Shown in pieces: positions 1-9,300 of a stretch of DNA of 24,184 nt. The notes under the pieces are model-generated. The model was not told the origin of the DNA. It saw nothing but the letters and a program-made list of their open reading frames with translations, and searched no databases. The position numbers and the translations under genes are program-made. The stretch's first letter is position 1; every line of letters starts with the position of its first letter. Source of the DNA: a virus; the IMG/VR virus record IMGVR_UViG_3300009495_000076, positions 1 through 24,184 of that record. One strand, given 5' to 3'.

Positions 1-184
1 ATAATATGCACCTATTCGGAGGAATAACAAGCCAGTACTAGTTTCAGATCAGGGTTAACCTACTGATAACATTGGGTTTTCGCACTGCTCTTACCTATAT
101 ATCGTTGGTCACTCGCCCAAATGAATACCTCAAGTAGAAATCTCAGGTTTGTTCTAGCGTGGGGGGCATGGGGGTACAGCGTAT

Positions 185-198
185 TATATACGTATATA
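185..198. repeat. 14-bp perfect palindrome TATATACGTATATA
   Basis: The 14 bases read the same on both strands, centred on CG at 191-192. It lies in the non-coding segment beyond the terminase gene and could be a protein-binding site or a cruciform-prone AT element. No function can be read from it directly. Confidence 0.6.
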
Positions 199-235
199 TA
201 CCTACTCAGATTTTTTCGACAAAAACATCCGAAGG

Positions 236-262
236 TTCACCCTAAGTAAAACTCTAGGTGAA
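236..262. repeat. Inverted repeat with 9-11 bp arms
   Basis: Arms TTCACCCTAAG (236-246) and CTAGGTGAA (254-262) pair with two single-base bulges around a 7-nt loop. It is one of four inverted repeats packed into about 170 bases. Confidence 0.5.
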
Positions 263-282
263 TCCCATCGTGTGTCCTCAAG
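260..282 (-). promoter_or_regulatory. Possible phage RNA polymerase promoter, weaker copy
   Basis: The minus-strand block contains ACACGATGGGATTC and matches the block at 343-365 at 15 of 23 positions by eye, including AGG, ACACGAT and GGAT at the same spacing. It could be a second promoter or simply a diverged direct repeat. The T7-style TATAGG core is changed to GATGGG. Confidence 0.25.
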
Positions 283-283
283 A

Positions 284-308
284 GGGGGGTACTGCGTACC
301 ACTCCCCC
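284..308. terminator. GC-rich hairpin downstream of terL
   Basis: GGGG (284-287) and GGTAC (288-292) pair with GTACC (296-300) and CCCC (304-307), with a 3-nt loop and a 3-nt bulge. On the minus strand the hairpin is followed by TCTT, a poor U tract. It may be a terminator for the late transcript or part of the end-processing structure. Confidence 0.35.
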
Positions 309-323
309 ACTAAGGTAGTCCCT

Positions 324-352
324 GATAGATACACTTGTAGTGTTATCCTATC
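324..352. repeat. Long imperfect inverted repeat (12-bp arms)
   Basis: GATAG and ATACACT (324-335) pair with AGTGT-AT and CTATC (339-352), with two single-base bulges and a 3-nt loop. It overlaps the promoter-like block at 343-365. By position it corresponds to the T7 right-end region, where concatemers are processed; that role is inferred. Confidence 0.5.
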
Positions 353-365
353 GTGTACCCTAAGA
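343..365 (-). promoter_or_regulatory. Possible phi-OR-like phage RNA polymerase promoter
   Basis: The minus strand carries GGGTACACGATAGGATAA, which matches the T7 class promoter at 13 of 23 positions when its GATAGG is aligned with TATAGG, including CAC upstream of the core. A similar block precedes the capsid gene (19690-19712). The place, just after the large terminase gene, is where T7 has phi-OR. The cognate RNA polymerase is not in the window. Confidence 0.35.
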
Positions 366-438
366 CCTAACTTACAGTTATAACTATAAGTTTAACCCGG
401 GGGTATTCTAATCACCGGAAATTAAACAAACCAAGGGA

Positions 439-3386: not shown

Positions 3387-4385
3387 TTAGTAAGTCGTTT
3401 CAGTCACCGAAGCGTCATAGGTGTTGGTGTTTGCCACGTTGGTCGTCGGGAACGTGCGGTCTGCGGCACTTACTTGGCCCCAAATGATACGCACAGCGCC
3501 GTTACCGCCAGCCGCAGACGAGCCGTTGCCGTCATCAGTACCGCCGCCGCCACCGCCGCCATACGCGCCGCCAACACCTGTGCCACTTCCATCACCATCG
3601 GAACCATCACTGCCACCAGAGCCGCCTTTGCCGCCAATAGCGGGGGTAGTGTTGTTTGTCTGCTCAACCCCCGAACCACTGGAGCCTTGTCCGTACATAC
3701 CAACACCGCCACCCCCGGCTGCGTAATTAACATTAGAAGCATCACTACCAGCCCCCGCGCCACCACCGCCGCCGTTGCCGCCTCCCGTAGGCTCTCCATC
3801 AGTGTCCGCTGCAATACCATCACCACCAACGCCGGAGTAGCCAGCAGTACCCCCGCCGCCGCCAGCTTCACCAGTACCACCAGCGCCGCCGTTGCCGCCT
3901 CGATGGACGTTTGTGCCGACCATACCGGATGTGCTGTTTGTGGCTGTGGGATTGTCTTTATTGCCTGTTGCCCCGCCACTAACATTTCGGCCACCAACGC
4001 CACCATTAGCGAGACAAATGGTAGTACCGGAGCGCACTACGCTACTGTTGCCGCCGCTGTCGCCTGTGGGGCCACCGCCACTACTTGTGTTATTCTTGCC
4101 TGATCCACCTGATCCTACAGTTACGGTAAGAGCCTGACCCGGCGAAACTGGGAAGGAGTTGCGGTAGGCTAATCCGCCCCCGCCCCCGCCGTCACCGCCG
4201 TTCGCTCCACCGCCAGCCCCACCGCCGCCTGCACCCACGCACAGCACTGAGATGCTGGTAACGTCAGCGGGAACCGTCCACGAGGTTGTGCCTGTGCTGG
4301 TAAACAGAGCGCCACCAATAGTTGCTGCGCCGCCACCGCCCGTAACCGTTCCGATGACGTTCATCATTGATGCTACAGCACTCAT
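3387..4385 (-). CDS. Glycine-rich tail adhesin (receptor-binding tip protein)
   Basis: This 332-residue protein is dominated by Gly runs, with Asn, Ser and Thr. It opens with a beta module around SWTVPADVTSISVLCVGAGG (about 35-54), then SPGQALTVTVGSGGSG. It closes the glycine-rich part with GNGAVRIIWG, a hallmark of glycine-rich phage fibre proteins. In T4-like phages such as S16, glycine-rich tip adhesins of this kind form polyglycine-II helices and bind the host receptor. The ATG overlaps the fibre stop codon (ATGA), so it is coupled to the tail fibre and probably binds its distal end. The repetitive G/C-rich DNA creates long open antisense frames, which are shadows. Confidence 0.85.
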   Translation of the reverse strand: MSAVASMMNVIGTVTGGGGAATIGGALFTSTGTTSWTVPADVTSISVLCVGAGGGGAGGGANGGDGGGGGGLAYRNSFPVSPGQALTVTVGSGGSGKNNTSSGGGPTGDSGGNSSVVRSGTTICLANGGVGGRNVSGGATGNKDNPTATNSTSGMVGTNVHRGGNGGAGGTGEAGGGGGTAGYSGVGGDGIAADTDGEPTGGGNGGGGGAGAGSDASNVNYAAGGGGVGMYGQGSSGSGVEQTNNTTPAIGGKGGSGGSDGSDGDGSGTGVGGAYGGGGGGGTDDGNGSSAAGGNGAVRIIWGQVSAADRTFPTTNVANTNTYDASVTETTY

Positions 4386-6346
4386 GTCAGGTCACTCCCG
4401 GCAATGATCGCCTTGGTCGCGCTAACGCACGTCACGGTGGCCAGCGAGTCTGCCCCAATCGTGACTGTCGCGTTGCTCGCTACGCCCGTCGCCTCTCCGT
4501 CTTTGAAAAGCACCACGGAGCCGCTGCCTTGACCGACTGTTACCGTCCCGGTCTCACAGTAGATGGTCACAATGTCTCCCGGCGTGAGGTTTGCAGTGTC
4601 GTAGGTGGCTGCACCGTTGGCGTAGTAGAGAGTCGCGCCGCCAAGAAGTGTGTGAGTGCCGACAGTTGTGCGTGGGTTGGCCTTGCGCACGTCAACCGAG
4701 ACCGCCCCGCTGTCCCCCGCCACCGACGTTGTTAGATTTTGCGCGTCAATCGTACCGCTGCTTGTATTAATAACGGCCTGCTTGTTCCCAATGGCGTTGG
4801 TGTTGCTCCCAATGGCGTTGGTGTTGCTGTCGATTGATGCTTTGAGTGCTTTGCCCTGTTCGGCGCTAAGTGGCACCTGAGTCCCACCTGTCGTCACGTC
4901 GTTGATAACGTTGCCCGGTTGAAGCGCTGTGTCTAGTTCCGTAAGCTGAGTGGGAGTCATGAGACCAGCATTGGTACTGTCTACAACAGTGATGACAGCA
5001 TTGGTCCCAGCGTTACTTGTGACTGTACCTTGACCCGCCGCTGCGGTGTAACCAAGGTCTACAGCCTCCAACTTGTTGCCAAGAGCTGTAACCGCATCGG
5101 TCGGAAGGTTCAGATCACCCTTCACGCCACCTACACTACGACGTTCCCACTGGTTACTAGAGTTCCTGTAGAGGTAGTCGCCAGATTGAGGAGTGCTTGT
5201 GTAATCCACGTCACCCACGTTACCGAGGCTAGACGTGTTGAGAACCTGTGCAGCAGCAGCAGGGTTCCACGCAGAGCCGTTGTAATACTTGAGCTGTGTT
5301 GTGGTGGTGTCGAAGTAGATGTCACCAGCAGACAATACGCTTGCCTTCGCGGCGTTGACCGCAGCGTCAGAGGCGTAGGAGCCGAGGTATTGGTTTACAA
5401 ACGTGTTCAGCGCAGCTTCAGCAGCCGTCTGTGCAGCTAGAGCCGCTGTTGCAGAGGCTGTCGCAGATGCAGAGGACGTAGTGTTAGCAATGTCACTCCA
5501 AGCTGACCCAGTGTAGACCTTCATCCGACCATCTGTCGTATTGAAGTAAAGGTCACCAGCGTCCTTGGTGTAGCTAACGCCACTGAGGTAGGTGTCTACC
5601 GCAGCATCGTCTGCGAATTGCCCAAGGATAACCTCGCGAACAATGTCACGGGCGGATACGGCAGACGCCGCAGATGCCGCAGCATTCGTTTCGCTGGTAG
5701 AAGCGTTGGACTCACTGGAAGCCGCAGCTACTTGAGACGCCGCAGCGTTGGTTTCACTGGTAGAAGCGTTAGATTCTGAGGAAGCCGCAGCCGTCTGAGA
5801 GGCAGCACTGGCTACTTGAGACGCAGCAGCGTTAGTCTCGCTTGTGGAAGCGTTGGATTCTGAGGTTGCAGCGGCGCTTTGGGAGGCGGCAGCAGCACCA
5901 GCAGAACCTGACGCAGCCGTAGCAGACGTGGAGGCTTCAGATGCTTTGGTAATCGAGGTGTTCGTAGCGGAAGTCACAGCGTCCGTCTGGGCGTTGATCA
6001 CCGTGTTCGAGGTCTGATCGTTCTTTTCTTCGGTGTAGTCGCGGAGAAGCTTCATAGAGTCCCCGATATCCGAAGGACGGAAGATTGCACCCGCAGCCCA
6101 TGTAAAGAGGTCAGTGGAGAGGTTGGTATCTCGGGTAAAGGTTACCCGGAAGTTGTTTGGTACGTTCGCATCAAAGCGGTATGTCGAGGCGTCTACAAGA
6201 CTTCCGGGGTGAGACCCAGTTACATCTGCGAAACCTTCGTCTTCCACCTTCACTACGACGAATGAATCGTCGAGATACGAGAAGGCGATGGTAAAATCAG
6301 TCGTCGCACCGTCAGCGGTGTAGACATTTACCGTATCAGACATCAT
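4382..6346 (-). CDS. Tail fibre protein (T7 gp17-like N-terminus)
   Basis: This is the trimeric fibre that links the tail to the receptor. Residues 1-120 match the T7 gp17 anchoring domain (an FTIAFSYLDDSFVVVKV-type start and a GAIFRPSDIGDSMKLLRDYT end). An Ala/Ser/Asn/Thr helical stalk follows (about 125-215) with repeated ESNASTSETNAAAS units. Next come two related GDLYFNTT/GDIYFDTT ... GSAW modules and a short SNTNAIG tandem repeat before the C-terminal beta-rich tip. Two ATGs (6346, 6343) follow AAAGGA. The first is given, but the second has better spacing (7 nt). A frame extension by TTG at 6349 is not needed. No chaperone or hydrolase domain is evident. Length is about 654 aa against 553 in T7. 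Confidence 0.92.
   Translation of the reverse strand: MMSDTVNVYTADGATTDFTIAFSYLDDSFVVVKVEDEGFADVTGSHPGSLVDASTYRFDANVPNNFRVTFTRDTNLSTDLFTWAAGAIFRPSDIGDSMKLLRDYTEEKNDQTSNTVINAQTDAVTSATNTSITKASEASTSATAASGSAGAAAASQSAAATSESNASTSETNAAASQVASAASQTAAASSESNASTSETNAAASQVAAASSESNASTSETNAAASAASAVSARDIVREVILGQFADDAAVDTYLSGVSYTKDAGDLYFNTTDGRMKVYTGSAWSDIANTTSSASATASATAALAAQTAAEAALNTFVNQYLGSYASDAAVNAAKASVLSAGDIYFDTTTTQLKYYNGSAWNPAAAAQVLNTSSLGNVGDVDYTSTPQSGDYLYRNSSNQWERRSVGGVKGDLNLPTDAVTALGNKLEAVDLGYTAAAGQGTVTSNAGTNAVITVVDSTNAGLMTPTQLTELDTALQPGNVINDVTTGGTQVPLSAEQGKALKASIDSNTNAIGSNTNAIGNKQAVINTSSGTIDAQNLTTSVAGDSGAVSVDVRKANPRTTVGTHTLLGGATLYYANGAATYDTANLTPGDIVTIYCETGTVTVGQGSGSVVLFKDGEATGVASNATVTIGADSLATVTCVSATKAIIAGSDLT
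4790..4832 (-). repeat. 21-nt tandem repeat in the tail fibre gene
   Basis: CCAATGGCGTTGGTGTTGCT occurs twice in a row on the plus strand, encoding SNTNAIG twice on the minus strand near the fibre C-terminal region. It is a seven-residue unit. Confidence 0.6.
5679..5876 (-). repeat. Three imperfect ~50-bp repeats in the tail fibre stalk
   Basis: Copies begin near 5679, 5742 and 5826 and each encodes SESNASTSETNAAAS or a close variant. The offsets of 63 and 84 bases are 3 and 4 times 21, that is 21 and 28 residues. This keeps a seven-residue register, as in a coiled coil. Such repeats can expand or contract by recombination and change stalk length. Confidence 0.75.
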
Positions 6347-6368
6347 CAAATCCTTTAAAGAATAGAGT

Positions 6369-6389
6369 AGGGGGCCGATTGGACCCCCT
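6369..6389 (-). terminator. Hairpin between gp16-like and tail fibre genes
   Basis: AGGGGG (6384-6389 on the minus strand) pairs with CCCCCT (6369-6374), plus a wobble and one more G-C pair, giving about 8 bp around a 5-nt loop. The next minus-strand bases are ACTCTATTCTTT, a loose T-rich tail. It lies 4 bases after the gp16-like stop. It may be a partial terminator or an RNA processing and stability element that sets fibre expression. Confidence 0.5.
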
Positions 6390-6393
6390 TAGG

Positions 6394-9300
6394 TTAAAAT
6401 TGATCAGCGACGAAGCGCTTCTCTGCGTCGGTCCATCCGGTTGTCTGATAGACTTCCTCAAGTTCCTTGCGTATCTCTGGGCCTACGCTGGTTAAGGCGT
6501 ACCTCAGGGCGGCATCCCGGTACTGAGACAGGAGGCCACGCCACAATTTGACCCTTGGGTCTTTGACGCTTGCTCCTCCAACTTTGAGAATGGGCTGGCT
6601 CTTACTGTTTACGTGCCGTTCAGCCAGTAACGCCCTCCATTTGCTATGCTCAGTCTGGTAGTAGTCGCCTTCGATCATTGCATTAGCGGCCTGCTCTAGG
6701 GTCATTCCGTTAATCTTAACGTCACCCTGAGAGAGGGACTCTTGCATGAAGTCATATACGGACTGACCGTCCTGAGCCTTCATCTTGTGGTACGGCATCC
6801 CGTCCCGCTCGAAGGTAGGGGACAGAAAGTCAGTTCCTGTTTGTTCTTGGATGTCCGCAAGTTCATCTGAGAGTGCATCTACAGCAAACTCACGGGATAC
6901 AAACGGGTTGAACCCCCGGCTGTGCGAAGGTTGCAAGCGGCCCAGCGCATCACGTTCTTGGTTGATAGCCCCAAAGCCCATGAGCTTGAGAGGGCCAATG
7001 GATTTACCCAGTCTCTCATAGAAGTTAACTGGCTTTCCTTGGAACTCTCCGCCGCCCGTAAGGTCAGCTAATTGCGAGAACCACCAGTTAAATGGTACGG
7101 CTGTCGAAAGGTTAGATGCTACGACCTGACCGCTACCCCGGAAGCCATCGTCCATGATAACTGCCAGAGTATCCGTCATGTTAGCCAAAGAGGACTTCTC
7201 TAGGGTTTGGTTGAGGTACATCGCAGTGATAGCCCCAACAGTGTCGAGGTATTCTGTTGCTTGTTCGATATCCTGAGCATGCTTTACGTGTTCCGCAGCC
7301 ATACGCGCAAAGACGAATGCGTTAAGGAACGGCACCTCCATATCAAGAGTGTTGATGTACTTTTTCTTACCGTTTCCCATGCGGATACGGATGTTACCGT
7401 AGGTTCGAGACTTGGGATCAACGTCAATGAGACCCTCATCGCCGTCTCCTTTGAGCATGCCATACGCTGACATAATGCCCATCGTAGTGAAGATGGAGTT
7501 GGCCGCTAGAATGGCACGGGTACGGGAGCGTATGCGCATATCAGGAGCGCCATCGTCCAGTGTTGCCTGCAGATCACGGGCAAATTTACCCGCCATAGCA
7601 CGGGTTACGTTGTTGTCTTTACCAATCAGGAGGATGGGAGCCAGAACTGTAGCCATGCGCTCTTCCATCACATTCAATGGGGTGGTTACAAACCGCATGA
7701 AGAGCAAACGCATCATCATGGCTTGGTTGGTACGCCCCATCATTATTTTTTTGATGCCTTCGTTGAGGGAACCCTGTGCTGCATCAGATTGGAACATGGT
7801 GTCCAGAGCCACCTCCCGCGCATAGTTATCCATCACGCGACCATCAGTAGACTTCTTAGCGAACGCAGCCTCCTCGCCCTGCTTTAACAGGAATGCCTCC
7901 CAGTCAGCATTGGTGAGCTTTCTCTTCTGCGCGAGCTTCATCAACTCTTCGCCGTATGTTCCTGCACGGGCATGGGTAGCCATTTCAGAGGAGATCACTA
8001 ACTCTTTGAACATCTCATCCACAGAACCCATGAAGCGGTAAACGTGTTCCGCAGCCTTCATGCCATGATCCAAAGACCCTTCTGCCTTAGACTGGCGGAC
8101 CTCTTTGAGTGTCTTGTTGGCGTAGTAACCCTTGTCGTCAAACATGGAGTTCTCACCGAATTGAGACTTACCTCTGCGCCAGAACTTACTGAAGGCAGTC
8201 ATGGCATCAGGCATCGACTGTGCGATAGCCCCGTAAGAGTGCCAGAACCTCTTGAAGGACTGACCAGACGCCTTTGCCCAATCGGCACGGCCCAATACAC
8301 CCTCGATAGGGTTAACCACCGCAGCCTCGATCAGGTTGACCATAGGGTTACGGATGGTGGCCCGTACAAAGTTACCCATGAGCATGAGCGCTTGGGTCGA
8401 AGTATTGAACAGCAGGTTAGCGTTGGATACGTGCAACAGCTTTTCCATGGTGGTCGGCTTGGTAGCCACTTGGTTAAACACCTTGGCCTTCGCACGTTTG
8501 TTCTTGGCGTTGTTAAAGGCAGCATCGAGTAGCTCGATCTTTTGCTTGTCAGAGATAAGGCCACGACTGTATTGCCACTCGCGGTGTGCCTGTTGTGCCG
8601 CCAGCTTCTTCTCCACGGTTTTCACACGCTTGAGCGCATGGAACGCATGGGACGCTGACTGACCTAGTTTAGCCACACCAGCTTGCAGGACAGCAACCTG
8701 AGCCTGCAGGTTGTCTAGACGTTCCATTTTAATTTGGAACGCAGCGTTATCCATCTGGTGATAGTTAGACCTAAGGTCAGCTACGAGACGCTGGGCGGCA
8801 TCCACGTACTGATCTTGAAGGAAACCTGCAGCGAAGATGTTGGCCGCATCGTTGGAGGACCACTCGCTAGGGTCTACGCTCTTTACGCGTTCCATTAGGT
8901 TAGGGTCTACAATATCTTCGTCTAGCTCAGAGAGAACCTTGAGACCCATACCCCGCAAGGTATTCATGGAGGTAGGCTCTTGAATTTTCTCCATCATCGC
9001 CAGAAACTTCTTCTGCAGAAGGTCAGCCATATCTCCAGCATGTAACTCGAACATGCTTCCACGCTTTCCATCGGGTACGTCAGCGGCATCTCCGAGCCAG
9101 TCATCACCGAAGATTACCTTCATCTTATCAGCGCTCACGCCAGACGCAGTACCGACACGGACAGAGGCCGTTAGGGCATCGAGTAATAACTCATCATTGT
9201 CGTTCCAGTCTGGCAATGTATCACGGTCGAACTGAAAGATTTCCTCAGTGGTCTTCTTACCGGGAGAACCCGCAGCCGCCTCAGAAATCTCTTGCTCCTG

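Follow-up and report, generated by a model that had tools for sequence, protein, structure and literature searches.

The stretch of DNA analysed here, called the window throughout, comprises 24,184 bases of an IMG/VR virus record, with all recognised late genes lying on the minus strand. The last of these genes encodes the large subunit of a terminase, which matches the profile PF22530 (Terminase-T7_RNaseH-like, E 2.1e-39) and matches by tblastn the DNA maturase B of Roseobacter phage CRP-804 (60.6%). The stretch beyond this gene, positions 1-438, holds a palindrome and three stem-loops (Table 1). Six near-identical sister contigs were found, and three of them (L003, L004 and L007), with 98-99.8% identity over the junction stretch, extend beyond base 1 of the window into an intergenic stretch followed by small early-type genes. 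Because the sister contigs connect the late end with the early end of the genome across positions 1-438, this stretch is to be regarded as the concatemer junction of a T7-like phage; as part of the overall explanation developed below, which we hold with considerable confidence, the phage should be of the Autographiviridae type, an ocean virus of bacteria. The earlier note had placed the inverted repeats at a T7-like right-end or concatemer junction, and the link from the terminase to early-type genes in the sister contigs bears this placement out.

Further features of the phage are seen in the sister contig G021 (27 kb), whose portal is 100% identical to that of the window. It encodes an integrase and a single-subunit RNA polymerase of 887 amino acids (PF00940, 5.8e-66), the gene for which lies outside the window itself. 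In the sister contig (L095 6116-7108), a tyrosine integrase (PF00589, 3.4e-27) is encoded shortly before the RNA polymerase gene, an arrangement possibly indicating a temperate T7-like phage. A glycine-rich protein of very low complexity is encoded at 3387-4385 on the minus strand of the window, adjoining the presumed tail fibre gene. The contigs carry a single copy of the repeat described below, as expected if the assembler collapses repeats. Two non-identical contigs, the window at base 1 and L002 at 4582, stop at the identical base, where no genome end is predicted; since this shared stop does not coincide with the predicted boundary, contig ends were dropped as evidence of physical ends.

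Table 1. Features of the junction region and the adjoining terminase gene, in window coordinates (strand left empty where none applies).
Feature	Position	Strand	Remark
Terminase large subunit (T7 gp19 / DNA maturase B type), 570 aa	439-2151	-	Last late gene before the junction
Candidate promoter for the phage RNA polymerase (equivalent of phiOR), TGTTTAATTTCCGGTGATTAGAATACC	402-428	-	+1 guessed at 408
Dyad AACTTATAGTTATAACTGTAAGTT	369-392		Inverted repeat, 92% complementary; a little beyond the reported span
Conserved motif ACACGATAGG, copy 1	347-356	-	ACACGATRGG pattern
Stem-loop H1	324-352	-	RNA fold z -3.23, 1/200 shuffles as stable; overlaps motif copy 1
Stem-loop H2, GGGGG..CCCCC	278-312	-	RNA fold z -1.07, 25/200 shuffles; alone at chance level
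Conserved motif ACACGATGGG, copy 2	264-273	-	ACACGATRGG pattern
Stem-loop H3	231-269	-	RNA fold z -3.00, 1/200 shuffles; between motif copy 2 and core
TTTTTGTCGAAAAAA, the window's version of the TTTTG-N-CAAAA element preceding the core	211-225		Base frequencies at junction sites given in the text
Predicted left-boundary (packaging/cleavage) site, core AAAAATCTGAG TAGGTA (= AAAAATCTGAG-N6)	199-215	-	Top match of the matrix
Reported palindrome, opening the predicted terminal repeat (14 nt)	185-198		Predicted cut at 199/198
C-run, 24 nt into the predicted repeat	170-174	-	Spacing as in the training phages
Predicted direct terminal repeat, ~149 nt	50-198	-	Left boundary firm, right tentative
Right-boundary-like ATCTGAAAC (ATCTGTAAC in L003 and L007)	41-49	-	149-150 nt after the left boundary
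Sigma-70-like promoter match	1-30 (= L003 5463-5492)	-	Just outside the predicted repeat; 1 found vs 1.4 expected

All four inverted repeats previously claimed for positions 185-352 are present, and the 14-bp palindrome TATATACGTATATA is perfect and the sole one of at least 14 bp in the 24,184 bases. If the block 181-400 is folded as RNA, the minus strand, which is the coding sense, yields a z-score of -3.69 with none of 200 shuffles as stable, compared to -0.26 and 81 of 200 for the plus strand; significant folding is confined to the minus strand and therefore points to RNA. When the window was divided into 109 tiles of 220 nt, four of them folded equally well or better on the minus strand, one of which (221-440) overlaps the cluster. 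Thus, the cluster is real and strand-asymmetric, yet its folding is not unique within the window. As judged by inspection, clear homologues of H1 and H2 were not found in the relatives, with no clear counterpart of H1 in L009-L018, while the position of H3 is occupied by hairpins of differing sequence in L008, L010 and L012 (z -5.0 to -4.3) and weakly in L015 (z -1.2). A covariation count on these H3 hairpins, from which the window's own H3 was excluded because it would not align with the relatives, as was L009, gave one doubly changed pair in four sequences, a value that was as high in 251 of 500 shuffles. Taken together, the three stem-loops are RNA-like and their conservation is weak. A search of L003 4900-8108 against Rfam at gathering score gave 0 matches.

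A view on phages with recorded genome ends shows that the left boundary of the terminal repeat often follows a simple rule. The rule set consisted of eleven records with exact terminal repeats at both ends, namely T7 (160 nt), T3 (231), gh-1 (216), K1F (178), SP6 (174), Syn5 (237), HTVC019P (162), BB8 (127), LUZ100 (244), P-SSP7 (206) and phiKMV (414). In seven of them (T7, T3, gh-1, K1F, Syn5, HTVC019P and P-SSP7), a TGA-N7 motif ends exactly at the first base of the repeat, accompanied by a C-run some 25 nt further in (at 24-26 nt in each of the six training phages); the T7 repeat at the right end starts as ...AAAAATCTGAGTGACTA^TCTCACAG...CCCCC. The motif lies 6 and 12 nt outside the recorded repeat start in BB8 and LUZ100, respectively, and is absent in SP6 and phiKMV among the eleven records, whereas the records of HTVC021P and HTVC011P lack a repeat and were left unscored. 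The right ends of SP6 and phiKMV (L106, L303) have a form in common, TTTTGATAT..GTGTG..^TC with a C-run 25-28 nt inside, which is a possible second boundary grammar. A matrix was built from six phages (T7, T3, gh-1, K1F, Syn5 and HTVC019P), and P-SSP7, fetched afterwards, served as blind test: its true end ranked first at offset 0, with a score of 18.0 vs 6.4 for the next. Leaving out one phage at a time, the true end came first in five of the six and second in K1F. The ends of T3 agree with read-based mapping (PMC3896407), and those of P-SSP7 were sequenced from virions (PMC3350473). Since one pattern stands at the known ends of T7 and six other phages, the sequence by itself often suffices to recognise such ends. 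For two named phages whose records begin at a gene, the rule predicts the first base of the repeat at 40,923 in Roseobacter phage CRP-804 (OR420734) and at 42,277 in Pelagibacter phage HTVC021P (MH579717).

Scanning both strands of the window with this matrix placed position 198 on the minus strand first, with a score of 18.3 compared to 12.3 for the next match; one of 60 shuffled windows reached this score. The cut is thereby predicted between 199 and 198, and the 14 nt of the palindrome would therefore open the predicted repeat, whose left-end sequence from 198 on the minus strand would read TATATACGTATATAATACGC. On this basis, the palindrome very probably lies at an end-processing site. In the stretch preceding the core, the TTTTG letters are the commonest ones at 52-82% per base in 99 distinct junction sites among the matches listed.

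The right boundary of the repeat can tentatively be placed near 50, as judged from an element reading ATCTGAA in the window and ATCTGTA in the sister contigs L003 and L007. The corresponding known boundaries are ^ATCTGTT in T7, T3 and Syn5, ^ACCTGTT in P-SSP7 and A^TCTGTT in SP6; an ATCTGTT-like right boundary is absent in BB8, LUZ100 and phiKMV, and the element was found in none of seven more distant loci of the clade (L008, L010-L012, L015-L017). Scans for sigma-70 promoters and terminators stayed at chance level. In the interval that separates the predicted repeat from the first early gene, L003 contains a short tandem repeat (about 12 bp; CAACAGCAGG..; 5690-5740), which we take to be reminiscent, in its position, of the short repeats of T7.

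Sequence constraint was assessed from the most diverged sister contig, L007, which shows 0 changes over 290 nt, made up of the 240 nt separating the terminase stop from the predicted cut plus 50 nt at the start of the repeat. Elsewhere, it shows 15 third-position changes in the 1,713-nt terminase gene, 4 changes in the 99 nt of the rest of the repeat and 7 in the 49 nt beyond. Over the 240 nt before the cut, the three other sister contigs compared contain 0, 1 and 0 changes; they are too close to add much. The lack of change supports a cis-acting function for the stretch as a whole, including the stem-loops, but does not distinguish between its parts. This conservation also bears on a chance clustering of inverted repeats in A+T-rich intergenic DNA, which would agree with H2 being at chance level and with three other window tiles folding as well; we consider it very improbable, because of the unchanged 290 nt and because the palindrome stands in exact register with an independently trained boundary rule.

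The boundary pattern extends well beyond the clade of the window. A set of 80 terminase loci was compiled, of which 78 entered the matrix scan and 77 had enough flanking sequence; the stretch downstream of the terminase scored at least 12 in 41 of these 77, as compared to 2 of 77 in antisense orientation and 6.8% of shuffles. If the core was searched in IMG/VR without reference to genes, 131 of 155 distinct contexts among the matches listed had a T7-type terminase (43-73% identity) upstream in the same orientation, at a median distance of 469 nt to the core, and the C-run was present in 141 of the same 155, vs 1.8% of random positions. The core thus marks the junction far outside the clade of the window. 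Directly inside the cut, dyads with arms differing among the relatives are frequently found, such as GCGTTATACGC, ACGCTATAGCGT, ACGTTATCACGT and TATACGTATA. Dyad arms of at least 4 bp at the cut occur in 19 of 29 distinct hand-listed sites vs 14.0% at other offsets, and in 43 of 99 blindly collected sites among the matches listed vs 15.5% in the control, counts that are not independent because the sequences are related; the blind count left out 7 further distinct sites without a C-run. Part of the enrichment is due to the A+T-rich TA^TA start. In T7, T3, gh-1 and K1F, no dyad of at least 4 bp is present at the cut, and the dyad was rejected as a universal feature of the site. Being enriched and yet missing in these phages, the palindrome is therefore a common but dispensable form of the site.

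The stem-loops are to be considered separately from the palindrome. They may solely represent RNA features of the late or phiOR transcripts, i.e., RNase III sites, 3'-end stabilisers or class I terminators, with the palindrome lying beside the cut without a role, and we give this reading an even chance. It agrees with the significant folding on the sense strand only, with the stem-loop R13, a putative RNase III site that the gh-1 record places immediately left of the repeat, and with the annotated terminators T20-T22 at the same place in LUZ100. Among the hand-listed sites, a stem-loop left of the cut (z < -1.5) is seen in 12 of 32 on the sense strand, 9 of 32 on the antisense strand and 3 of 32 controls, and hence is not universal; by z-score, T7 and HTVC019P contain none. 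For the three stem-loops themselves, an explanation by RNA function alone is as good as any other, and they may be RNase III sites or weak terminators. However, it leaves unexplained why the palindrome is in exact register with the predicted cut and why dyads are enriched there. The earlier suggestion, made with reference to hairpin intermediates in T7 end formation, that the whole cluster may serve end processing or replication restart is supported in part: the palindrome very probably lies at the end-processing site, and a share of the three stem-loops, whose folding bias is on the side of RNA, stays conjectural.

The start of a transcript across the junction may be provided by the candidate promoter downstream of the terminase gene. 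Four near-copies of TTWATTTMCGGTRATACGCC are present on the sense strand of G021, located before the RNA polymerase gene, between the genes for RNA polymerase and SSB, after an endonuclease gene, and within the helicase gene at its 3' end. These score 34.8-37.8 in a promoter matrix and the site in the window, a fifth and less exact copy, scores 30.7, compared to 12.6 for the next best match and no antisense match above 8.8, with the matrix being built from these same five sites. An annotated phage promoter between terminase and repeat is also known from T7 (phiOR, 39229), T3, gh-1 (phi17) and LUZ100 (phi8). Near-identical intercistronic units starting with ATTCCTGCAGCGGGGGCAATC and containing a GGGGGCA..TGCCCC hairpin are found between successive early genes in L003 (four copies, 6133-8030), and in L095 a variant of this type of unit, differing in its arms, stands before the SSB gene.

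Another conserved element between the terminase gene and the core is the motif ACACGATRGG, whose two copies are the only matches in the window at up to one mismatch. It occurs in 16 of 18 related records with one or two copies each (a single one in L009-L011), and is kept while the neighbouring sequence changes, also in relatives without the TTTCCGG promoter motif; the single match in L008 lies elsewhere in the contig and looks like chance. In L008-L011, a zinc-finger/HNH-like reading frame, perhaps a homing endonuclease, appears by eye to be inserted into the junction region, after the first ACACGAT-type motif and ahead of the core. The motif was demoted from main phage RNA polymerase promoter to an alternative once the TTTCCGGTGATACGCC motif had been found at five places. 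It may still be a second class of phage RNA polymerase promoter right before the repeat, and we take the resemblance of ACACGATA followed by GG to the -8 to +2 region of SP6 promoters as a point in its favour. According to the respective reports, two unrelated promoter classes are used by the RNA polymerase of KP34 (PMC6834552) and only two promoters exist in Syn5 (PMC3950665). We nevertheless consider a second promoter class rather improbable, because the candidate at 402-428 is better supported and because the retention of ACACGAT in relatives without the TTTCCGG motif is more like that of a terminase-side site. The latter property would fit a binding site of the small terminase subunit in the manner of a cosB-like or pac-like repeat, with the palindrome as a cosN-like nicking site. 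The presence of two copies on one strand, with starts 75 and 158 nt ahead of the predicted cut, and their retention amid changing neighbouring sequence agree with such a function; it still appears unlikely, because the pattern is absent in 64 of 81 loci, including all more distant ones, and was thus not found outside the clade, and because L009-L011 have one copy.

Our preferred explanation, with a core-directed cut, a left end at 198 and a repeat extending to about 50 of a T7-like concatemer junction, appears highly probable as a whole, and the following order of events may be envisaged. The phage RNA polymerase would start near 408 and transcribe the stem-loops, the core and the repeat, comparable to phiOR in T7. 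The terminase would recognise the core AAAAATCTGAG-TAGGTA on the minus strand (215-199) and cut the joined genomes at 199/198, generating the new left end at 198. The repeat would then start with the palindrome and end around 50 at the ATCTG element, which resembles the pause/cut element of T7 and would represent the right end. A recruitment of terminase by pausing is plausible, and pausing of the polymerase at the right-boundary element may help to bring in the enzyme here. T7 RNA polymerase is described as stopping at ATCTGTT, a class II signal present in the T7 concatemer junction, and the T7 and Syn5 enzymes as yielding terminated products on a template holding ATCTGTT, in the respective papers (PMC11617373; PMC9624206). 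A more general proposal is that one grammar, TTTTG-N3-CAAAAATCTGAG-N6-^-N24/25-CCCCC, often with a dyad at the cut, sets the left end in many T7-like phages, with the dyad representing the nick-positioning half of left-end formation; this we regard as somewhat less than an even bet. If it were true, ends and repeats would become predictable from metagenomic contigs.

Such predictions would be of use because assemblers collapse terminal repeats, leaving the physical ends of most metagenomic T7-like phages unknown. The P-SSP7 paper describes an assembly error of this type and calls the completion of the left repeat incompletely understood (PMC3350473). A boundary rule that is exact for seven recorded ends offers sharp and cheap predictions and indicates which bases are relevant to left-end formation; for the window, it reduces a list of hairpins to one testable base, 198. 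The rule was not found described in the open-licence literature searched, a scope that excludes the classical T7/T3 packaging papers and offers no proof of novelty, while the junction itself appears to belong to the known T7 type. The T7 junction is arranged in a like order, with the terminase followed by a phage promoter (a candidate in the window), AAAAATCTGAG, a repeat (160 nt) with a C-run 25 nt in, and, tentatively matched in the window, ATCTGTT at the right boundary, but it has no dyad of at least 4 bp at the cut, and the window differs by ATCTGAA in place of ATCTGTT and by another promoter sequence. LUZ100, an integrase-bearing T7-like phage with a 244-nt repeat, likewise has a phage promoter (phi8) between terminase and repeat, but its annotated repeat start lies 12 nt inside the position given by the rule, and ATCTGTT is missing at its right boundary. 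The Pelagibacter phage HTVC019P (162-nt repeat) reads ATTATGAGGGGGTA^TCGTATTAC with a C-run inside, but contains a lysozyme gene after the terminase, and left of its cut no stem-loop reaches significance (z 0.66). Finally, the T7-like Prochlorococcus phage P-SSP7 carries genes including that for transaldolase between its terminase and its 206-nt repeat, but resembles the window in its left boundary GTCTGAGGTCATA^TATACG, in the C-run inside the repeat and, tentatively, in ^ACCTGTT on the right.
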